From Microbacteriaceae bacterium (GTDB lineage: Bacteria; Actinomycetota; Actinomycetes; Actinomycetales; Microbacteriaceae): a stretch of 44,449 bases of DNA. The stretch covers positions 1-44,449 of the forward strand of contig JAKVJE010000005.1 in assembly GCA_022487185.1 (NCBI GenBank), written 5' to 3'. A model generated the notes under the pieces. The model was not told the origin of the DNA. It ran no database searches and saw nothing but the letters and a program-made list of their open reading frames with translations. The translations under genes and the position numbers were made by a program. Shown here one piece after another: positions 14,248-26,980 of the stretch. The stretch's first letter is position 1, and each line of letters begins with the position of its first letter.

Positions 14248-14320
14248 GGGCCTATGGCGCAGCTGGTAGCGCACCTCCATGGCATGGAGGGGGTCGGGGG
14301 TTCGAGTCCCCCTAGGTCCA
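14248..14320 (+). tRNA. tRNA-Ala(GGC)
   Basis: The acceptor arms GGGCCTA (14248-14254) and TAGGTCC (14313-14319) pair fully with a G3-U70 wobble, the alanine identity element, and A14320 is the discriminator. The anticodon loop ATGGCAT within CCTCC/GGAGG gives anticodon GGC, which reads GCC. The T arm carries GTTCGAGTC. The CCA end is not encoded. Confidence 0.97.
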
Positions 14321-14458
14321 CTTTCCCGTCTGTTCCATTTTTTGTTCTCACTACCCGATCCATCTCCGGGCTCATCCTGTTGTTTTTCTTAGCCGGATCC
14401 GGAGATTACGCTGCGTGCCGATCCGCACTTCCAGGGTTGGGATGCGCCTCGCCCGAAG

Positions 14459-15728: not shown

Positions 15729-15770
15729 GGAGCACAGCTTCACGGTCAACTTGAAGCTGAGAGGATGTCC

Positions 15771-17042
15771 ATGTTGCGTGTCAAGACACCGCTTCTGAGC
15801 CTCACGCTGGTTTCAGCTGTCTTTTTCGCGGGCGTTCAGGCCTTGGGGATGCCAGCGGCCATCGCGCAAGCGGATACTACGAGTACGGAACAACAGATCG
15901 CGAGCATTCAGCAGCAAATTCAATCTCTGCAGACTGAATATTCAACAGCATCTGCCAACGTGGAGCGATCTGCCTCTGACTTGACCCAGCAGCAAAGCAA
16001 AGTTGCAGATCAGTCGGCTACATACCTTGCACTTCAGGCTCGTCAGGAAACCGCCGACCAGCAGGCGTCACAGGCGAAAAGACGTGCAGGGGCGATTGTG
16101 GCTCGGTTCGCACGAAACGGACAGGCCACAGATTTAAACTTGGCGTTTGACTCTTCCGATGCCGCTGGGACATTAACCCGGCTGAGTTCTTTGGGGCGCA
16201 TTGGGCAACAGGCCGCTGGTGTCTACAAAGATGCCGTGCATGAGTTGAACGAGGCTCGACAGCTTACCAAGCAAGCTCGGCAGGCACAGAATGCTCTTCA
16301 ACAGCAGATGTCTGCATTGACGGCTGCAGCGAATGCAGCACAGAGCGCGCAGGACAGCCTGCAGAAGTCACTGCGGGATCAGCAGAACAATGCCGTTCAA
16401 CTGGCGAGCGAGCTTGCCACGCTTCAGCATCAGGATGCTGCTGCTGCTGCTGCAGCAGCAGCAGCACAGGTCCAGCAACGTCAGGCCGCAGCACAGTCTC
16501 AGCAGCAGTCAGCGGTACAGCGGGTTCAGGCACTCGCACGAGATTCATCAAACCAGTATGCTCAGCGAGCACAGCAGTCAACATCTTCTGGTCGTACGAG
16601 TCCATCCTCAGGAAGTAGTGCCTCATCCGGATCGAACACGACGGGTGCGAGCCGGGCAACTGCATCATCATCCTCTGGGACAGGCTCGTCTTCAGTTCCC
16701 TCGGGAGCAGGCATCGTCTCCACAGCCCTAATGCTTGCGAATAAGAATATTCCGTATGACTGGGGCGGTACAACTCTTTCCGGGTTCGATTGCTCCGGTT
16801 TCGTTCAGTACGTTTTCAGTCTGAATGGAATTCGACTACCTCGCACTTCTCAAGCGCAAACTGTTGCTGGAACTCAGATCTCAGTTTCTCAGGCTCGAGC
16901 TGGTGATCTTGTGTCTTGGGGGTATCACATCGGTATCTATCTGGGGAACGGACAGATGGTCGACGCCCCACGCCCGGGGAAGACAGTTGGTATCCATTAT
17001 ATCAAGTACTACGGGGGATCTCCGGTGTATGTACGTATTTAG
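15771..17042 (+). CDS. secreted NlpC/P60 peptidoglycan endopeptidase with coiled coil
   Basis: Exported wall hydrolase expected to cut peptide stems during cell separation, as in the RipA-like proteins of Actinomycetota. The 423 residues comprise a signal peptide (about 1-29, ending AIAQA), a Gln/Ala-rich coiled coil (about 35-265) with a run of ten alanines, a Ser/Thr/Gly linker (about 270-315), and an NlpC/P60 domain (about 320-423). Catalytic residues are Cys near 341 (FDCSGFVQY) and His near 386 (YHIGIYLGNGQ); MVDAPRPG supplies the third polar position. I chose ATG 15771 because GAGAGG (15759-15764) is correctly spaced for it and abuts ATG 15765. Codon use is less GC-rich than its neighbours. 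The coiled coil resembles the protein at 1-687, which may be a paralogue. Confidence 0.93.
   Translation: MLRVKTPLLSLTLVSAVFFAGVQALGMPAAIAQADTTSTEQQIASIQQQIQSLQTEYSTASANVERSASDLTQQQSKVADQSATYLALQARQETADQQASQAKRRAGAIVARFARNGQATDLNLAFDSSDAAGTLTRLSSLGRIGQQAAGVYKDAVHELNEARQLTKQARQAQNALQQQMSALTAAANAAQSAQDSLQKSLRDQQNNAVQLASELATLQHQDAAAAAAAAAAQVQQRQAAAQSQQQSAVQRVQALARDSSNQYAQRAQQSTSSGRTSPSSGSSASSGSNTTGASRATASSSSGTGSSSVPSGAGIVSTALMLANKNIPYDWGGTTLSGFDCSGFVQYVFSLNGIRLPRTSQAQTVAGTQISVSQARAGDLVSWGYHIGIYLGNGQMVDAPRPGKTVGIHYIKYYGGSPVYVRI
16437..16466 (+). repeat. (GCT)5(GCA)5 trinucleotide tract encoding ten alanines
   Basis: Five GCT codons followed by five GCA codons create a palindrome of about 28 bases centred on CTGCAG. 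Being both a short tandem repeat and a perfect inverted repeat, it is prone to slippage and hairpin formation. Length changes would stay in frame. Confidence 0.9.
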
Positions 17043-17070: not shown

Positions 17071-17096
17071 AAACGCGTTCACTAATTTCATATACA

Positions 17097-17176
17097 TCGC
17101 GGGAACCCGTTTGGGCTGAGAGGGAGCGTTTGGCTCCGACCGTTGAACTTGATCTGGTTTATACCAGCGTAAGGAG
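17097..17176 (+). promoter_or_regulatory. TPP riboswitch (THI element)
   Basis: The aptamer core is present: GGGCTGAGAGGG at 17113-17124 (the CUGAGA element that recognises the pyrimidine) and GAACTTGATCTGG followed by ATACCAGCGTAAGGA (17145-17175), the usual thi-box 3' half. The AAGGAG at 17171-17176 is both the aptamer's end and the ribosome site of the next gene, so ligand binding should block translation; no terminator is visible. Binding of thiamine pyrophosphate should switch the transporter off. Confidence 0.95.
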
Positions 17177-17182
17177 CGTTTT

Positions 17183-17776
17183 ATGTCCACTTCTGTGCAC
17201 TCACGTCGGCTGCCCTGGCGTGTCGTCGATATCGTCGTCGCCAGCGTATTGGGCGTGGCCCTTGGCGTGCTGTTCTGGATCTGGGCCTTCGTCTACAAGG
17301 CTCCATCCGCTGGGCTGGAGGCGCTGCTGCCCGGGTTCCAGGGGCTTGTGAACGGAATCTGGCTCATGGGCGGTGTCGTGGGTGGCCTGGTCATCCGCAA
17401 ACCCGGGGCTGCGATCTACACCGAGCTTCTGGCGGCGGTGGTCGAGGCCCTTCTGGGCAGCCAGTGGGGTGTGCTCACCCTGGTCTCGGGCATCGTGCAG
17501 GGGCTCGGTGCAGAGGTTATTTTCGCGATCTTCCTGTATCGCCGTTGGAACCTGGGTGTCGCGATCCTGGCCGGTGCAGTTTCGGGCCTCTTCGGGGCTG
17601 TCAACGACCTGATCTTCTGGTACCCGGGATCGAAACCGGCCTTTATGATAATTTATCCGGCGTCTACGGTTATCTCTGCGGCGATCGGTGCAGGACTTCT
17701 GGGCTGGCTGCTCGTCTCGGGTCTCGCGAAAACCGGTGCGCTGGCCAAATTCCCTGTGGGGCGCACCCGGGTCTGA
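17183..17776 (+). CDS. ykoE: ECF transporter substrate-binding subunit YkoE
   Basis: Membrane S-component for thiamine precursors, probably hydroxymethylpyrimidine or thiamine. The 197-residue protein has about six hydrophobic segments and the family features PWRVVDIVVASVLGVALG at the N-terminus, GSQWGVLTLVSGIVQGLGAE centrally, and a conserved FGAVNDLIFWYPG. It follows a TPP riboswitch and precedes the ATPase and T-component of the same transporter, which fixes the substrate class. Translation starts at ATG 17183 with AAGGAG seven bases upstream inside the riboswitch. Exact substrate is inferred. Confidence 0.95.
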   Translation: MSTSVHSRRLPWRVVDIVVASVLGVALGVLFWIWAFVYKAPSAGLEALLPGFQGLVNGIWLMGGVVGGLVIRKPGAAIYTELLAAVVEALLGSQWGVLTLVSGIVQGLGAEVIFAIFLYRRWNLGVAILAGAVSGLFGAVNDLIFWYPGSKPAFMIIYPASTVISAAIGAGLLGWLLVSGLAKTGALAKFPVGRTRV

Positions 17777-17778
17777 GC

Positions 17779-19224
17779 ATGGGCCGCCGCGCAGGTTCAA
17801 TCGAGGCCCACGGATGGGGTTGGCGGTACGGGGAGCGCACGGCTGCAGCGGTTTCTGACGTTTCGTTCCGAATCGACCAGGGCGAGCATGTGCTCTTGAT
17901 CGGCCCTTCCGGTGCGGGGAAATCCACATTGCTCGCAGGACTGGCCGGGGTCCTCGGGGCTGAGGACGATGGCGAGGAATCCGGCGAGCTCCTCATCGGA
18001 GGGCAGACCCCGCGGCCTGGACAGGCCGGGTTGATGCTCCAGAACCCGGAGTCACAGATCGTGATGTCCAGGGTCGGTGACGATGTGGCGTTCGGGTGCG
18101 AAAACTTCGCGGTTGATCCCGCCCAGATCTGGAGCAGGGTCACGCAGTCCCTCCACGATGTGCAGCTTGACGTTGCCCTGTCCCGAGATACGGGTGAACT
18201 TTCCGGGGGACAGCAGCAGCGGTTGGCTCTCGCCGGGATCTTGGCGATGCGTCCCCAGGTGCTTTTGGCCGATGAGCCGACGGCGAATCTCGATCCTGAG
18301 GGCGTGGCTGAAGTCTCTGCCACCTTGACAGCGGCTGCACGTGAAACCGGGGCCACTCTGGTGGTCGTTGAACACCGGGTGGATGTGTGGCTCCCTCTGG
18401 TGGATCGTGTGCTCGTTGTCGCCGGGGGACGCCTGGTGGCAGACGGTACTCCGCAGCAGGTCATCCGGGAACAGCTCGGGGTGCTCCGGTCTGCCGGGGT
18501 TTGGCTTCCCGACGAACACCCTGAGGTGTCCCTGGGGAGCGCCCCGCAGGGCGATACCCTGCTTCAGCTTGAGGATGTTTCAGTTGGCCGGGACTCGCAG
18601 CATCTTCTCCTCTCGGGGGTTGAGACACAATTCTCTGTCGGGGAACTCGTGGCGTTGACCGGGAAGAACGGTCTGGGCAAGACCACTCTGGCCTATTCGC
18701 TGGCCGGACTGGTCGCTCCACGTTCTGGGTCGGTGGTGGCAGCACCGGCGCTTCGACGCGGATTGGGGTCGGATCCGTTTTCGTGGCCATCCAAACGGCT
18801 GGTCTCCCGGATCGGCACGGTCTTCCAGAATCCGGAGCATCAGTTTGTTTCGAGCACGGTGCGCAGGGAGCTTTCCGCTGGGCCACGGGCGGCGAACGTT
18901 CCTGAGGATGAGATCCGCAAACGGTGTGACGAGTTACTGGGCCGGCTTCGTCTGGAACGGCTTGCTGAGGCGAACCCCTACACCCTCTCGGGTGGCGAAC
19001 AGCGCCGCCTGTCCGTGGCCACGATGCTGGCGACGCGTCCGTCGTTCCTCGTGCTGGACGAACCGACGTTCGGGCAGGATGCGAATACGTGGCGGGAACT
19101 GTCTGCACTCCTCCGGGAGCTCCTCTCCGAGGGGGTCGGCATTGCTGCGATTACTCACGACCGCCTGTTCGTCGATACCGTCGCAGACCGGGAACTCCCC
19201 TGCGGGAGGTGGCGGGCTGTATGA
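17779..19224 (+). CDS. ykoD: ECF transporter double ATPase YkoD
   Basis: Energising subunit with two fused ABC ATPase domains in 481 residues. First domain: Walker A GPSGAGKST (about 43), signature LSGGQQQRL (about 141), Walker B LLADEPT (about 162). Second: GKNGLGKTT (about 295), LSGGEQRRLS (about 403), LVLDEPTFGQD (about 425). Each half has its own catalytic glutamate. The start at ATG 17779 lies two bases after the ykoE stop; the frame stays open upstream within ykoE but that part is not coding. The stop overlaps the ykoC start in ATGA. Together with YkoE and YkoC it forms a self-contained thiamine-precursor importer. Confidence 0.95.
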   Translation: MGRRAGSIEAHGWGWRYGERTAAAVSDVSFRIDQGEHVLLIGPSGAGKSTLLAGLAGVLGAEDDGEESGELLIGGQTPRPGQAGLMLQNPESQIVMSRVGDDVAFGCENFAVDPAQIWSRVTQSLHDVQLDVALSRDTGELSGGQQQRLALAGILAMRPQVLLADEPTANLDPEGVAEVSATLTAAARETGATLVVVEHRVDVWLPLVDRVLVVAGGRLVADGTPQQVIREQLGVLRSAGVWLPDEHPEVSLGSAPQGDTLLQLEDVSVGRDSQHLLLSGVETQFSVGELVALTGKNGLGKTTLAYSLAGLVAPRSGSVVAAPALRRGLGSDPFSWPSKRLVSRIGTVFQNPEHQFVSSTVRRELSAGPRAANVPEDEIRKRCDELLGRLRLERLAEANPYTLSGGEQRRLSVATMLATRPSFLVLDEPTFGQDANTWRELSALLRELLSEGVGIAAITHDRLFVDTVADRELPCGRWRAV

Positions 19225-20012
19225 GCATTTCTCTGCAGACACGGCACGGCGGGCCATCGAGTCTCAGCCGGTTTAACCCATTGGCGTTGATTGTCGCAGC
19301 GCTCATCCTCTCGCTGACGCTGCTCGGGTCTCTCGACCTCGTTTCAGCGTCCGTCTCGTTGTGCCTAGTGCTGGTGGGACTCGTCGTGCTGCGATTCGGG
19401 TGGAGACGCTTTTGGCGGACGACCTGGCCGATCTGGGTTGCGGCGCCGACAGTTGGGATCACCCTGTTGCTCTATGGGCAGACGTCTGGCCGCGTGTACG
19501 TGCATTGGCTGTTTGTCGAGATTTCGGATGGCTCGATTCAGGTGGCCCTCTCCTCCGTGCTTCGTGTGATCGCCATGGGGATCCCGGCAGTCCTGGCACT
19601 GGCCGGATCCGACTTGACGGCACTGGCCGATGCACTGGAGCAGCGGGCGCGTTTCCCGGTCAGGTTTGTACTCGGAGCGCTGGCGGGGCTTCGGCTGATC
19701 TCCCTCTTCTGGCAGGACTGGAAGACGCTCGAGCTCGCACGCAGGGCACGCGGGCTGGGGGATGGGGGCCGAATCCGCCGGATGTTCTCACAGGGCTTCG
19801 CTCTTCTGGTGCTGGCGATCCGCAGGGGGACCAAATTGTCGGTCGCGATGGAGACCAGAGGCCTCGGTGCAGGACCCCGGACGTGGGCCAGGCGGTCGGA
19901 GTTCCGGGCACGGGACTGGGTACTTCTCGGTGTGGCCGTACTGATCGCATCGGCCGCGGTCCTGGCGTCGATTTTGACTGGGACGTGGAATCCGATCCTG
20001 GGTGCGGGGTGA
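19221..20012 (+). CDS. ykoC: ECF transporter T-component YkoC
   Basis: Transmembrane coupling subunit of the CbiQ/EcfT family, 263 residues with four to five hydrophobic segments (for example NPLALIVAALILSLTLLGSL and the C-terminal VLLGVAVLIASAAVL). The cytoplasmic coupling helices contain the characteristic ARRARGLGDGGRIRR and SVAMETRGLGAG segments, matching the two Ala-Arg-Gly type ATPase-contact motifs. The ATG overlaps the ykoD stop by four bases. An apparent longer frame from 19089 overlaps ykoD and is a shadow. Confidence 0.94.
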   Translation: MSISLQTRHGGPSSLSRFNPLALIVAALILSLTLLGSLDLVSASVSLCLVLVGLVVLRFGWRRFWRTTWPIWVAAPTVGITLLLYGQTSGRVYVHWLFVEISDGSIQVALSSVLRVIAMGIPAVLALAGSDLTALADALEQRARFPVRFVLGALAGLRLISLFWQDWKTLELARRARGLGDGGRIRRMFSQGFALLVLAIRRGTKLSVAMETRGLGAGPRTWARRSEFRARDWVLLGVAVLIASAAVLASILTGTWNPILGAG

Positions 20013-21602: not shown

Positions 21603-22178
21603 GTGCACTGTTGTCCCTCTGAGCTCGTCCGGTTTGCGTGGTTGCGCCGCGGGCCGGTCCTGGTGGATGGGCGCTCGGGAGCTGGCAAATCGACACTGGC
21701 GGAACAGCTGGCCGACCGTGGGCCGCACGGGACGCGCCTCATCCACCTGGATGACCTCTACCGGGGCTGGAATGATCTGGAGGCCACGAGCCGTCGGATG
21801 GTCTCGCTGATATCGCGGTGTTCACGGCGGTACCGGAGGTGGGATTGGAGCCTCTCTCTCCTCGCAGATGAGGTGCGCATCCCTCCGGCCGCTCCCCTTG
21901 TGATCGAGGGGAGCGGAGCGATCACACGGCAAAGCGCCCGGCTCTCGAGCTGTGCCATCTGGGTGGATGCCCCCGTTGCGGTGCGCCGTTACCGTGCCCT
22001 CCGCCGTGATGGATCGGGATACGCCGATGGAGAGTACTGGAATGTCTGGCAGGCTCAAGAGCAACGTCATCTCCGTCTCGACAGTCCTGAGATTTTGGCG
22101 GATGTGTCGCTCACCTGGGGTGATGCGGGATCCGCAAGTTTGACGTATCGGTGCTCCCGTGTGGCGCCGACGAGTTGA
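21603..22178 (+). CDS. P-loop kinase-like protein (uridine kinase-like)
   Basis: A 191-residue P-loop NTPase with Walker A DGRSGAGKST (about 22-31) and HLDDLYRGW (about 48-56), the pattern of the uridine kinase and related small-molecule kinase group. A basic patch RRYRRW and a VIEGSGAI strand follow, as in AAA-type nucleoside or metabolite kinases of Actinomycetota. The substrate is unknown. The start is a GTG at 21603 with a -10 directly upstream and no ribosome site, so a leaderless mRNA is likely. The next gene begins 12 bases after its stop, so it is probably the first gene of an operon with the glycerophosphotransferase-like gene. Confidence 0.8.
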   Translation: MHCCPSELVRFAWLRRGPVLVDGRSGAGKSTLAEQLADRGPHGTRLIHLDDLYRGWNDLEATSRRMVSLISRCSRRYRRWDWSLSLLADEVRIPPAAPLVIEGSGAITRQSARLSSCAIWVDAPVAVRRYRALRRDGSGYADGEYWNVWQAQEQRHLRLDSPEILADVSLTWGDAGSASLTYRCSRVAPTS

Positions 22179-22190
22179 AGAGGTGAGTTG

Positions 22191-23441
22191 ATGCGGATCA
22201 TGCACTGGATCTCTGTGGGAATCAGCGATCTCCGAGCGTTGGTGAAGATGCTGCGGTCGCGTTCCCGGGCGCGTGCGTACCGACGGGGCATCGGCGTTGT
22301 CCAGGGCCAAATGCCTTGGAGTGATCGGGGATATGAAGTCGCGATTTACTTCGCGGATCAGCCGCGCAACATGTATCAGATTCGACAGTGGTACGAGCCG
22401 TTTCTTGCGTTCGCGCAGCGGCATCCCACCGTCATTATCACGCGCAGTTCCAAGACCACCCTGGTGCTGCAGGAGGAATGCCCCCTCGACGTGCAGTACT
22501 GTATGCGTATCACCGATCTTGAACGCTTTGTAGCGGCGCAGGAGCGTCTTCGACTCGTCTTCTATGTGAACCAGAATCGCTCAAATCTGCAGATGCTCGG
22601 ATTCCATCGGCCGGCACATGTCCATGTGAACCACGGTGAGAGCGACAAAGTTTCGATGGTTTCGAATGCGCTGAAGGCGTATGACCGCGTATTTATCGCG
22701 GGTCCCGCCGCCAGGGATCGCATTCTCTCGAGACTGTTCAGTTTCCCCGCGGAGCATCTTGTGGAGGCTGGGCGGCCGCAAATCGATGTTCCGGTGCCCG
22801 GCCCGGTACTCCCGGAAGACAACCGGACCGTGGTGCTCTATGCCCCGACCTGGGAGGGGGACCGACCGGGGATGACCTACAGCTCCATCCTTTCGCATGG
22901 ACAGCTGCTGGTGAATGCCCTGCTTTCCCGACCGGACGTCCGGCTCATTTTCCGACCGCATCCGCGCACAGGGACCTATGACCGGGCATATCGGCACGCC
23001 CTCCATGAGATCGAGCGCGCCATCGCTCATGCCAATGAGCGGGATCCGGGAGCGGCGCATCTCATAGACACGGAGTCACGTTTCGGATGGCAGACGAAGG
23101 CAGCTGACCTCTGCGTGTGCGATATCTCTGCAGTGGCCTTTGACTGGCTGGCCACCGGTAAACCATTCCTGATCACGGAACCCGTCTCCGGAGAGGCCAC
23201 TGTTCAGCACGAGGGAATCGTGGCGGAAGTCCCGTTGCTCTCTGCAGCTCGTGCCGGTGCGGTCTGGCAGGAACTTGCGGTCGCCGGGAGGAGCGAGAAT
23301 CTGGAGCGGATGCGGGAACTGTGCGCCTACCATTACGGTGATACCACACCAGGCGCCAGCATGGAGCGGTTCCTGACTGTTTCGGAGCGCGTGTGGAGCG
23401 ACCGAGATGCACAGATCCGTGTTCGTGAGGACCACGCATGA
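22191..23441 (+). CDS. CDP-glycerol glycerophosphotransferase family protein
   Basis: Resembles the TagB/TagF polymerase and primase family that transfers glycerol phosphate from CDP-glycerol in teichoic-acid synthesis. The 416-residue protein has a basic, possibly membrane-associating start (LRSRSRARAYRRG), the motif VNHGESDK (about 147-154, equivalent to the family's HGxxxK), LYAPTWEG (about 218), the RPHPRTG motif (about 254), and DISAVAFDWLATGKP (about 310). These are the conserved sites of the catalytic domain. It is shorter than TagF and closer to single-domain primases. ATG 22191 is preferred, with AGAGGTGAG upstream; the frame could start at TTG 22188. It overlaps the next gene (ATGA). 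The polymer made is not known. Confidence 0.85.
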   Translation: MRIMHWISVGISDLRALVKMLRSRSRARAYRRGIGVVQGQMPWSDRGYEVAIYFADQPRNMYQIRQWYEPFLAFAQRHPTVIITRSSKTTLVLQEECPLDVQYCMRITDLERFVAAQERLRLVFYVNQNRSNLQMLGFHRPAHVHVNHGESDKVSMVSNALKAYDRVFIAGPAARDRILSRLFSFPAEHLVEAGRPQIDVPVPGPVLPEDNRTVVLYAPTWEGDRPGMTYSSILSHGQLLVNALLSRPDVRLIFRPHPRTGTYDRAYRHALHEIERAIAHANERDPGAAHLIDTESRFGWQTKAADLCVCDISAVAFDWLATGKPFLITEPVSGEATVQHEGIVAEVPLLSAARAGAVWQELAVAGRSENLERMRELCAYHYGDTTPGASMERFLTVSERVWSDRDAQIRVREDHA

Positions 23442-24427
23442 CCGAAACCGTTGTGTTGTTCCCCCCCGTCCAAGGTCTTGACGACCGGTCAGTTCTCGCG
23501 ACCCGGATCGGCCCACGGCCAATCGGGAGTTTTCCGCGGGTTATCGTTGCGGGTGCTCCGCTGACGGAATCCCTTGGGCTGGAGTCTCCGTCGGTGCAGG
23601 CGGTTGGCCATCCGGGGGACTCGCTGGAGGAGCTGCTTCGTGCCGTGCACAGTGCTGGAGACGGTAGCCCCCTGATCCTGGTCCCGGGAGCCTCCATGGC
23701 ACCAGCGGTCTCCGGGATGCCGTCGCTGGAGGTGAGTCCGATCCTGTTGGATGGTTTGGTGACATCTCCATCCGCCTTTTCAGCCTTTGTGACGGAGGTA
23801 TTCGTCCCCGCTCTCGCTGCGGAGCGTTGGCAGCTGCGCTCCCCGGCTGAGCGGGAGCGCTGGGCCGGTGCGGTCGCGGGGCTTCTCTCGCGCGCGCAGG
23901 ACGAGGAATTCTCCACGGCTCTGGACTCGGTGGAACCCCCGATGCAGCAAGTTCTCCGTGCGTTTCGCGGCCTGGGGACCGCGGAAGGAGTCAGGCTCGC
24001 GGATGCGCTTGGAATCCGGGCGGTGTGCCAACGGCTTTGGCAGCACCGCGGAACCCTATGGGCGTGGATCGCGATTCAGGGGGCCCGTGAGCTTCCGCGG
24101 CGGGGACGTGTGACGGTCGCGAAGACCTCTACCCGGTGGCGCAGGCTCGTGGGTCCTGCCCTGATCGTCCGGCTCCCCTCCTCAGGAGCGGAGCGGGGAA
24201 CTGCAGACTTGTCTCCGGTCCGTCCAGAAATCTCTTTGAGCGGAATTCCGTGGTCTCTCCCGCTCCGGGCACCATTCCCCGGTCCAGCCAGGATTGTTCT
24301 GGGGGATGTGGGAAACGATCCGGATTCTCGCCCGCCGATACAGCCCGAGCTGGATGAGCGCGGCGCCGTTCTCCTGGCCCCGATCCAGCCGCAGCATCGT
24401 TCCAAGAGCTCCGATTCGCGGCGGTGA
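23438..24427 (+). CDS. uncharacterised 329-residue protein coupled to the glycerophosphotransferase gene
   Basis: I do not recognise this protein. It has no signal peptide and no clear membrane helix. The N-terminal third alternates short hydrophobic strands and turns (PRVIVAGAPLTES, GSPLILVPGASMAPAV), suggesting an alpha/beta domain, then a helical region (about 110-200, for example RWAGAVAGLLSRAQDEE), and a basic segment (about 215-235, ELPRRGRVTVAKTSTRWRR) followed by a Pro-rich tail. The ATG overlaps the upstream stop by four bases, so it is almost certainly made together with the glycerophosphotransferase-like protein and may act with it. The gene ends 52 bases before the acyl-CoA ligase gene. 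The frame is long, with codon use like its neighbours, and is a real gene. Confidence 0.8.
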   Translation: MTETVVLFPPVQGLDDRSVLATRIGPRPIGSFPRVIVAGAPLTESLGLESPSVQAVGHPGDSLEELLRAVHSAGDGSPLILVPGASMAPAVSGMPSLEVSPILLDGLVTSPSAFSAFVTEVFVPALAAERWQLRSPAERERWAGAVAGLLSRAQDEEFSTALDSVEPPMQQVLRAFRGLGTAEGVRLADALGIRAVCQRLWQHRGTLWAWIAIQGARELPRRGRVTVAKTSTRWRRLVGPALIVRLPSSGAERGTADLSPVRPEISLSGIPWSLPLRAPFPGPARIVLGDVGNDPDSRPPIQPELDERGAVLLAPIQPQHRSKSSDSRR

Positions 24428-24479: not shown

Positions 24480-26162
24480 ATGACCGAGGAGTACCCGAGA
24501 CCGTGGAGGGAACAATTCCCTCCAGAAGTTCCGGTCGATATGCCCCCAGTCCCGGTATCGAGCCTGGCCGAGCGCATCGATATGGCCTGCCGGGAGTACG
24601 CGGACCGTCCGGCCTTCACGAACATGGGGACCACCCTCAGCTTCTCGCAGATCGGAGAGCTGAGTGATGCGGTTGCGGCGTACCTGCTCGGAGAGCTGGG
24701 GCTGTCGAAGGGCGACCGGGTGGTCGTCCAGATGCCCAACGTGCTGCAGTTTCCGATTATCGAGTTCGGCATCCTGAAGGCGGGAATGATTCCGGTCAAT
24801 ATGAACCCGCTCTATACGGTGCCGGAGATGCGTGTGCTCCTGGACGAGGCCCGTCCGAGGGCCTTCTTCGTCCTCGAGAACTTTGCCTATAAGATCGCGA
24901 AGCTTGTTCCGGAGACGACCATCGACGCGTTTATCGTCACCGGTGCTGCCGACGTTTTCGGAGCGGGGAAGCGCGCCGCGGTGTCGGTGGGTCTGAAGGT
25001 CAGGAGGATGGTCCCCGCGTATCAAATCCCCGGGGTCATCCACTTCCGAGAGGTGCTGCGCGTTGGCCGGGGGAGGCCGTACACTAGGCCAGAGATTTCC
25101 CTCGATGATGTGGCCCTGCTGCAATTCACTGGCGGCACCACAGGGCGTCCGAAGGGGGCGATGCTGACCAACCGCAGTCTTCTTTCCAACGGACAGCAGA
25201 TGCTCGAAGAAATGCGCGTGGTGTTGCGTGAGGGCGAAGACGTCGTGATAGCGGCGCTGCCCCTGTACCATATTTTTTGCCTGACCGTCAATTGCATCAC
25301 CTTCTTTAGCTTTGGGCTCCACAACGTTCTCGTGACCAATCCGCGTGAAGTGGATGTCCTGGCCCGGATCATTGTGCGACGGCGTCCGGCGCTGATGATG
25401 GTCGTCACCACCCTGGCCAACGCGCTGCTCGATGCTCCGAGATTCCAGCGAGGGGATCTCTCGTCCTTCAAGTTCTGCGTTTCCGGGGGAGCGGCGCTGG
25501 ATCCGACGACCGCCGAGCGGTGGCTTCGCCGGGTAGGGACGCCGATCGTTGAGGGGTACGGGCTCACGGAGGCCTCTCCGGTGGTGGCAGTGAGTCCGAC
25601 ATGGCGTCTCCCGGAGACGCGCATGGGGACGGTGGGTCTTCCTCTGCCCTCGACCGAGATCCGGATCTTGGATGAATCCGGTGCCGATCTCCCGCTGGAG
25701 GAGGCCGGTGAGCTCTGGGTCAGCGGTCCACAGGTGATGGCTGGCTACTGGGGGCATCCGGAGGAGACCCAGGAGGTCTTGAGCCAGGACGGCTGGCTGG
25801 ATACGGGCGATATTGCGGTTCTGCACGCGGATGGCTCCTTCAGCATTGTCGACCGCCGTAAGGACATGATCTGCGTCTCGGGATTCAACGTGTACCCCAC
25901 CGAGGTGGAGCAGGCCCTGCGGCAGATTCCCGGCATCCGGGACGCCGGGGTCATCGGGGTGCCAGATCAGCATTCCGGGGAAGTAGTGAAGGCGTTCCTG
26001 GTGCGAGACGATCCATCGGTGACCGAGCAGGCTGTGCGGCGTGCGGCGCGCACGAGACTGGCCGGGTACAAGCGCCCGAAGCATATTGAGTTCTGCTCAG
26101 AGCTCCCCATCTCAGAGACTGGGAAGGTGTTGCGCCGGTCGCTGCGGGCCCCGGAGAAGTAG
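24480..26162 (+). CDS. long-chain fatty-acid-CoA ligase (FadD-like)
   Basis: Adenylate-forming enzyme that activates fatty acids with ATP and CoA. At 560 residues it matches E. coli FadD (561). Motifs: the AMP loop FTGGTTGRPKG (about 216-226), YGLTEASP (about 360), GWLDTGD (about 438), the linker DRRKDMI (about 460), and the C-terminal SETGKVLRR lysine (about 552). No signal or membrane anchor. ATG 24480 follows GGGAGG (24464-24469). Its role could be fatty-acid uptake or activation of an acyl group for lipid or envelope synthesis; the setting beside envelope-type genes allows the second, but does not prove it. A shadow frame on the opposite strand (24129-26084) is not a gene. Confidence 0.92.
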   Translation: MTEEYPRPWREQFPPEVPVDMPPVPVSSLAERIDMACREYADRPAFTNMGTTLSFSQIGELSDAVAAYLLGELGLSKGDRVVVQMPNVLQFPIIEFGILKAGMIPVNMNPLYTVPEMRVLLDEARPRAFFVLENFAYKIAKLVPETTIDAFIVTGAADVFGAGKRAAVSVGLKVRRMVPAYQIPGVIHFREVLRVGRGRPYTRPEISLDDVALLQFTGGTTGRPKGAMLTNRSLLSNGQQMLEEMRVVLREGEDVVIAALPLYHIFCLTVNCITFFSFGLHNVLVTNPREVDVLARIIVRRRPALMMVVTTLANALLDAPRFQRGDLSSFKFCVSGGAALDPTTAERWLRRVGTPIVEGYGLTEASPVVAVSPTWRLPETRMGTVGLPLPSTEIRILDESGADLPLEEAGELWVSGPQVMAGYWGHPEETQEVLSQDGWLDTGDIAVLHADGSFSIVDRRKDMICVSGFNVYPTEVEQALRQIPGIRDAGVIGVPDQHSGEVVKAFLVRDDPSVTEQAVRRAARTRLAGYKRPKHIEFCSELPISETGKVLRRSLRAPEK

Positions 26163-26242: not shown

Positions 26243-26980
26243 ATGACGATTCAAGCGACGATCCTGGCAGCTGGCATGGGTACCCGTCTCGGGCGCCCGT
26301 ATCCGAAGTCTCTGACGCACCTCAGTGATGGGCGCACCATCATGGGGCAGCAGCATGACAACATCGCCACCGCTTTCGGCGATGATGTTCGCCTGGTGAC
26401 GGTGGTCGGCTTCAAACTTGAGGCGATCATCGAGAGCTTCCCCGACAGCGCCTTCGTGTACAACGAGCTGTTCGATCAGACCAACACCTCCAAGAGCCTC
26501 CTCAAGGGGCTCCACGCTCATGGTGAGGGCGGGGTGCTGTGGATGAACGGCGACGTGGTCTTCGATCCCGAGATCCTCCGCCGTGTCAAGCCCCTCATCG
26601 AGGCCGACCAGTCCTTCTGCGTGGTCAACACCAGTGAGGTCGCCGATGAAGAGGTCAAGTACACGGTGTCCGCCGATGGCGGGCTTTCGGCCATCTCGAA
26701 GCGTGTTCCCACCGGCATTGCAGAGGGAGAGGCCGTGGGTATCAACTTCGTGTCGAGCACCGATCGCGAACTCCTCGTCCACGGCCTTGAGCTGGTTGAT
26801 GATCAGGAGTACTTCGAAGGCGGCATTGAGTGGGCCATCAGCCAGGGGGCACGGTTCCTGCCGGTGGACGTCAGCGATCTCTCGGCCGTCGAGGTCGACT
26901 TCCCGGACGATCTGGCTCGCGCCAATCGTGAGTTCGCCCCGCAGATCCTGGACGAGGAACCCATCGCGGTCTCTGCCTGA
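26243..26980 (+). CDS. LicC-like nucleotidyltransferase
   Basis: Single-domain NTP transferase of 245 residues with the GT-A type nucleotide motif LAAGMGTRLGRPYPKSL (about 7-23), a metal-binding WMNGDVVFD (about 101), and a conserved YFEGGIEWAI segment near 191-200. These are seen in phosphocholine cytidylyltransferase LicC, choline- or sugar-nucleotide transferases. The expected reaction is NTP plus a phosphorylated small molecule (sugar, choline or glycerol) giving the nucleotide-activated form and pyrophosphate. Which substrate is not visible. The start at 26243 is probably leaderless. Followed by a 17-base-pair hairpin facing the convergent exporter gene. It may supply activated precursor for surface polymer genes upstream, an inference. 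Confidence 0.82.
   Translation: MTIQATILAAGMGTRLGRPYPKSLTHLSDGRTIMGQQHDNIATAFGDDVRLVTVVGFKLEAIIESFPDSAFVYNELFDQTNTSKSLLKGLHAHGEGGVLWMNGDVVFDPEILRRVKPLIEADQSFCVVNTSEVADEEVKYTVSADGGLSAISKRVPTGIAEGEAVGINFVSSTDRELLVHGLELVDDQEYFEGGIEWAISQGARFLPVDVSDLSAVEVDFPDDLARANREFAPQILDEEPIAVSA

Follow-up and report, generated by a model that had tools for sequence, protein, structure and literature searches.

The stretch of DNA analysed here, in the following called the window (44,449 nucleotides), is one entire contig of a Microbacteriaceae MAG with an assembly of 1.29 Mb that is about 84% complete. Its tagF/tagB-like gene lies in a run of the order kin-tagF-unk-fadD-NTP (Table 1), in which the genes are separated by 12, -4, 52 and 80 bases. 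This spacing suggests that the run forms one transcript; a promoter and terminator scan returned no predictions and was uninformative. The product of unk is referred to below as the orphan.

Table 1. Features of the window around the overlap of tagF and the orphan gene
Feature	Position	Strand	Basis or remark
PRK06547-like P-loop kinase (kin)	21603..22178	+	12 bases 5' of tagF; absent from the locus in relatives
TagF/TagB-like glycerophosphotransferase (tagF), 416 aa, single GT-B domain	22191..23441	+	PF04464, motifs, model
Orphan protein (unk), 329 aa	23438..24427	+	ORF and overlap; homologue-less in every search
ATGA stop-start overlap of tagF and orphan gene	23438..23441	+	sequence
FadD-like long-chain acyl-CoA ligase (fadD)	24480..26162	+	52 bases 3' of the orphan gene; absent from the locus in relatives
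NTP-transferase (PF12804)	26243..26980	+	sole other gene of the teichoic-type locus still nearby
tRNA-Ala(GGC)	14248-14321		next in order in both g85 genomes too

The genomes searched included no second genome of the host genus. Judged by isoleucyl-tRNA synthetase, the nearest genus is g85 (73-76% identity; other nearly full-length matches reached about 68% or less). The gene order from ileS to nadD and one further gene is common to the window and two g85 genomes, and tRNA-Ala follows in all of them. Past this tRNA gene, no window gene was matched in the fetched stretch of the g85 genomes. Synteny thus ends there, and all of the window beyond 14.3 kb has been either rearranged or gained. A tRNA-flanked island was considered and rejected, as an att-like repeat was not found in the window. 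Two further observations were made in this part of the contig. A TPP riboswitch (17091-17192) lies immediately 5' of the ORFs 17183-20012, an ECF-type transporter (CbiQ-like and ABC ORFs) which probably imports thiamine or a thiamine precursor. The gene of a secreted NlpC/P60 hydrolase (15765-17042) has a synonymous codon score of -0.18, compared with 0.04 to 0.21 in other window genes, and its local G+C is lower as well.

For tagF, the ATG at 22191, with GAAGAGGTGA just 5' of it, is better placed as start codon than the TTG at 22188 given in the program-made ORF list. An earlier note on this DNA had proposed a TagF/TagB-like glycerophosphotransferase in an actinobacterium, and this assignment holds: PF04464 is matched with 39.2 bits (curated cut-off 22.1) over residues 156-329 only. 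The motifs HGESDK (148-153), APTWEG (218-223), RPHP (255-258) and D311-I-S313 vary little or not at all among 35 relatives; H148, G149, K153, H257, D311 and S313 are invariant in the 35-sequence alignment. We take H148 and H257 to be the active-site histidines and D311 and S313 to be the D-S pair, with the catalytic role presumed from TagF. A GT-B fold was predicted confidently by AlphaFold (pLDDT 89.9). With this model, Foldseek found TagF (3l7i, E 2.2e-9, TM about 0.55) and a capsule multienzyme among the matches; the top matches were UDP-GlcNAc 2-epimerases, slightly above 3l7i. These epimerases share the GT-B-like fold, and since they match best, the fold alone leaves the substrate of the enzyme unset. 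A profile search found TagF-like Cps3D (PDB 8qoy, E 1.6e-4).

The priming enzymes TagB and CpsA fall within PF04464 (PMC11666461). With enzymes of the TagB/TarB/TarF/CpsA type, the window protein has in common the single-domain length, the PF04464 match, the GT-B fold and the HG/PHP/D-S motifs and, through its relatives, the teichoic-type gene neighbourhood. It differs from them by its weak PF04464 score, and its substrate is a putative one. With the TagF polymerase (3l7i) and Cps3D (8qoy) it shares the GT-B domain, at 12-13% identity, but not their additional domains. Relatives have a separate long TagF-type protein (L061, about 955 aa), which carries a motif of the HG.P.K type where the window enzyme has HGESDK. 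No long TagF-type polymerase was found in the assembled host genome (84% complete), which contains one PF04464 gene. Since the window enzyme is a lone single-domain protein and a long TagF is missing from the assembly, it would probably carry out single or few transfers, i. e. TagB-like priming, and not long polymerisation.

Of 400 sampled family genomes, 272 encode a TagF-like homologue, but none was found in g85 (four genomes). The homologues from Microbacteriaceae are 37-50% identical to the window enzyme over nearly the full length and likewise have the NTP-transferase nearby. Among named genomes, relatives occur in Microbacteriaceae, Micrococcaceae and Brevibacterium. We place the host in Microbacteriaceae since the loci of its family-mates agree with those of the named members of that family. 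In a tree of 47 rows the window enzyme did not join the Microbacteriaceae clade; its long branch was placed with sequences of Micrococcaceae and Brevibacterium around it. This position would fit horizontal gain as well as retention of an old form, and neither is preferred. The TagF-like protein is an ordinary member of a known, common transferase class. In the otherwise complete genomes G286, G361 and G236, the TagF-like gene was matched as two adjacent, frameshift-like pieces (G286:C1:715418-716613, G361:C1:458540-459744, G236:C1:711763-712673).

To place the window in context, 97 loci were compared. They were chosen for holding a TagF-like gene, so that all neighbour frequencies are conditional on its presence; ORFs within 4.5 kb of tagF were compared all against all. 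In the relatives, the TagF-like gene is accompanied by genes for GT2 glycosyltransferases, a CDP-alcohol phosphotransferase, a TagGH exporter and the NTP-transferase, i. e. a locus of teichoic-acid type. The commonest same-strand neighbour is a GT2 gene upstream, present in about half of the 97 loci (51-member family). Further families are a CDP-alcohol phosphotransferase (50), a second GT2 (84) and an ABC permease (57); the ABC ATPase yielded 118 rows, unrelated ATPases among them. The genes 3' of the TagF-like gene vary by lineage. Loci of Micrococcaceae and Brevibacterium contain TagD-like genes too (the L072 copy, at 158 bits, stays below the cut-off of 165), and one of them has a TarS-linker GT2. 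In 77 of the 97 loci, an NTP-transferase homologue (58-65% identity) was found close by, at a median distance of 2.6 kb from the TagF-like gene. It is encoded on the strand opposite to the TagF-like gene in relatives and on the same strand in the window. This switch indicates that the arrangement in the window was rebuilt. Homologues of kin, unk, fadD and thrE were present in 0/97 loci.

Other proteins came to light in this comparison. In most Microbacteriaceae loci, the space between the TagF-like gene and the genes of the ABC exporter is occupied by a member of a conserved family (L061:9849-10748; 67 ORFs at TagF-like loci), whose proteins are about 250-340 aa long and match nothing in Pfam or NCBIfam. 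Arthrobacter castelli has a 136-aa ORF (L074:11078-11488), also without Pfam or NCBIfam match, that begins 12 bases 3' of the TagF-like gene; it is dissimilar to the orphan. A Microbacterium-like TagF locus on a contig titled Stenotrophomonas maltophilia P13 (L136, JACEFY010000049.1) probably reflects assembly contamination.

In the host, the other parts of the Microbacteriaceae locus (GT2/CDP-alcohol phosphotransferase/TagGH/NTP-transferase) are dispersed or absent, and the orphan has no counterpart in that locus. Statements on the host genome derive from targeted searches of the assembly, and at about 84% completeness absences are provisional. Two TagH-like ATPases with permeases are encoded on contigs C1 and C35; their best NCBIfam match is TagH, below its cut-off, and the one on C1 shares 59% identity with an ATPase from an Arthrobacter TagF-like locus. 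One CDP-alcohol phosphotransferase was found as a very strong generic match. None of the three GT2 genes in the assembly (84% complete) is a homologue of the upstream GT2 of the family, and TagD (TIGR01518) gave no match in the same assembly. The NTP-transferase of the window could replace TagD. The teichoic-type pathway of the host may be incomplete or work with another donor.

The orphan has a pI of 9.3. As the earlier note had described, its ORF overlaps the TagF-like gene by ATGA, it has a basic block (residues 201-240, net charge +8) and it carries no membrane anchor, the highest 19-residue Kyte-Doolittle mean being 1.34, as for a soluble protein. Its single-sequence AlphaFold model is unusable (pLDDT 37) and lends no support to the alpha/beta-looking first third described in the earlier note. 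That it falls outside known families was likewise confirmed by profile search: the best matches in Pfam (E 0.24) and among PDB sequences (E 0.85) are noise, and NCBIfam gave no match. In the 400 family genomes it is absent from all except its own. The best E value there was 1.7e-4, and these matches are read as noise because they are short stretches, several of which run across stops. The four g85 genomes gave no match and neither did named genome contigs, a search that reaches close relatives only. When the 11,256 ORFs surrounding TagF-like genes were searched without any HMMER filter, the best E value was 0.22. A paralogue in its own genome was not found. A phage or plasmid origin was considered and rejected, as no match was obtained among plasmids, phages and viral contigs. 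The same applies to kinship with the L061:9849-10748 family, CDP-alcohol phosphotransferases, ABC proteins, NTP-transferases or TagF, for which hhalign scores were at shuffle level. Across everything searched, the orphan thus appears genuinely lineage-specific and homologue-less.

The lack of homologues, together with a high second-position G+C, could also mean that the ORF is a chance frame or a pseudogene and encodes no functional protein. Its synonymous codon score is positive but low (0.062), though within the range of real genes close by (tagF 0.078, nadD 0.044), and one antisense frame over it scores about equally (0.056). Codon usage alone therefore leaves the coding status undecided; the antisense ORF 23176-23916 has no Pfam match. 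Against a chance frame stand the length and position of the ORF: in a Markov simulation at its composition, 329 open codons arose with a probability of about 0.0003, and the frame is positioned exactly by the ATGA overlap. A frameshifted pseudogene was rejected, as a six-frame search against the locus genes was empty and revealed no out-of-frame homology. We regard the absence of a functional gene as quite improbable; the ORF is probably a gene, judged from its sequence.

Since the upstream GT2 of about half of the relatives lies on the same strand just 5' of the TagF-like gene, the orphan could be a strongly diverged or decayed replacement for it, a TarS-like GT2 with a GT-A half, a helical linker and a beta tail. 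By eye, residues 50-90 and the helical middle show a faint likeness, and the order of secondary structures in the orphan model, which is itself unreliable, would be compatible. However, hhalign against GT2, CDP-alcohol phosphotransferase, TagF and TarS-like profiles remained at shuffle level, some real control proteins score 65-81 against the TarS-like profile, and no segment of the orphan matches PF00535 or TarS_linker. We therefore rejected the likeness seen by eye as evidence of kinship, and consider such a diverged GT2 unlikely.

What connects the orphan with the TagF-like enzyme is the overlap of their genes. ATGA overlaps are common, and a 4-base overlap usually accompanies tight translational coupling; obg and proB in the same window overlap by ATGA too. 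In E. coli, about 30% of the gene pairs at a distance of -8 to +10 bases encode subunits of a complex, compared with 7% of distant pairs (PMC10666635). The overlap of tagF and the orphan gene is thus a modest prior for a partnership and not a proof of it. As no other genome searched has the pairing, the partnership rests on the overlap without comparative support.

A possible interpretation, which we put forward tentatively and with a probability well short of even, is that the TagF-like protein is a priming transferase and the orphan its coupled cytosolic accessory factor. The enzyme would act at the cytosolic face of the membrane, where a CDP-activated donor supplies the glycerol-3-phosphate (or another polyol-phosphate) that it transfers to a membrane glycolipid; the NTP-transferase encoded downstream would probably make or feed this donor. 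The orphan, as a real lineage-specific cytosolic protein, would be made by termination-reinitiation after TagF. It may then assist the TagF-like step as a partner or, via its basic segment, as a subunit that recruits the membrane or the acceptor; a role of this kind in the cytosol is a guess with weak support. In a stronger version, to which we give only a small probability, this lineage would have a minimised teichoic-type pathway of its own, and the orphan would adopt a new fold and serve the TagF-like enzyme as obligate partner or second transferase.

Alternatively, the orphan gene is real and lineage-specific but functionally unrelated, having arrived or arisen next to tagF, and the overlap reflects the packing of a small genome. 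Its restriction to a single genome fits this alternative, as it was found neither at the other TagF-like loci nor in the nearest genus nor elsewhere in the family. Moreover, kin and fadD likewise lie outside the conserved locus, the entire stretch after tRNA-Ala is rearranged with respect to the nearest genus, and about 70% of the close pairs in E. coli form no complex (PMC10666635). On the other hand, the tight translational coupling that usually goes with a 4-base overlap argues against mere packing, and the retained NTP-transferase suggests that the run is not random. We judge an unrelated gene to be not far below an even chance; the odds for it and for an accessory of the TagF-like enzyme are similar.

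The view of the pair as a recurrent functional unit was not supported by the neighbourhood survey (0/97 loci). Nor is the suggestion of a new variant of a teichoic-acid-like pathway supported by the distribution of the two genes, the TagF-like gene being common in the family and the orphan confined to its own genome. A useful outcome is that the pairing is unconserved and gives no basis for assigning the orphan a role; the orphan would be important only if it were shown to act with the TagF-like enzyme. As a new part of the teichoic-type pathway, the L061:9849-10748 family is a better candidate. Teichoic-acid-type synthesis in Microbacteriaceae is scarcely treated in the open literature searched, yet many genomes across the family have the locus.
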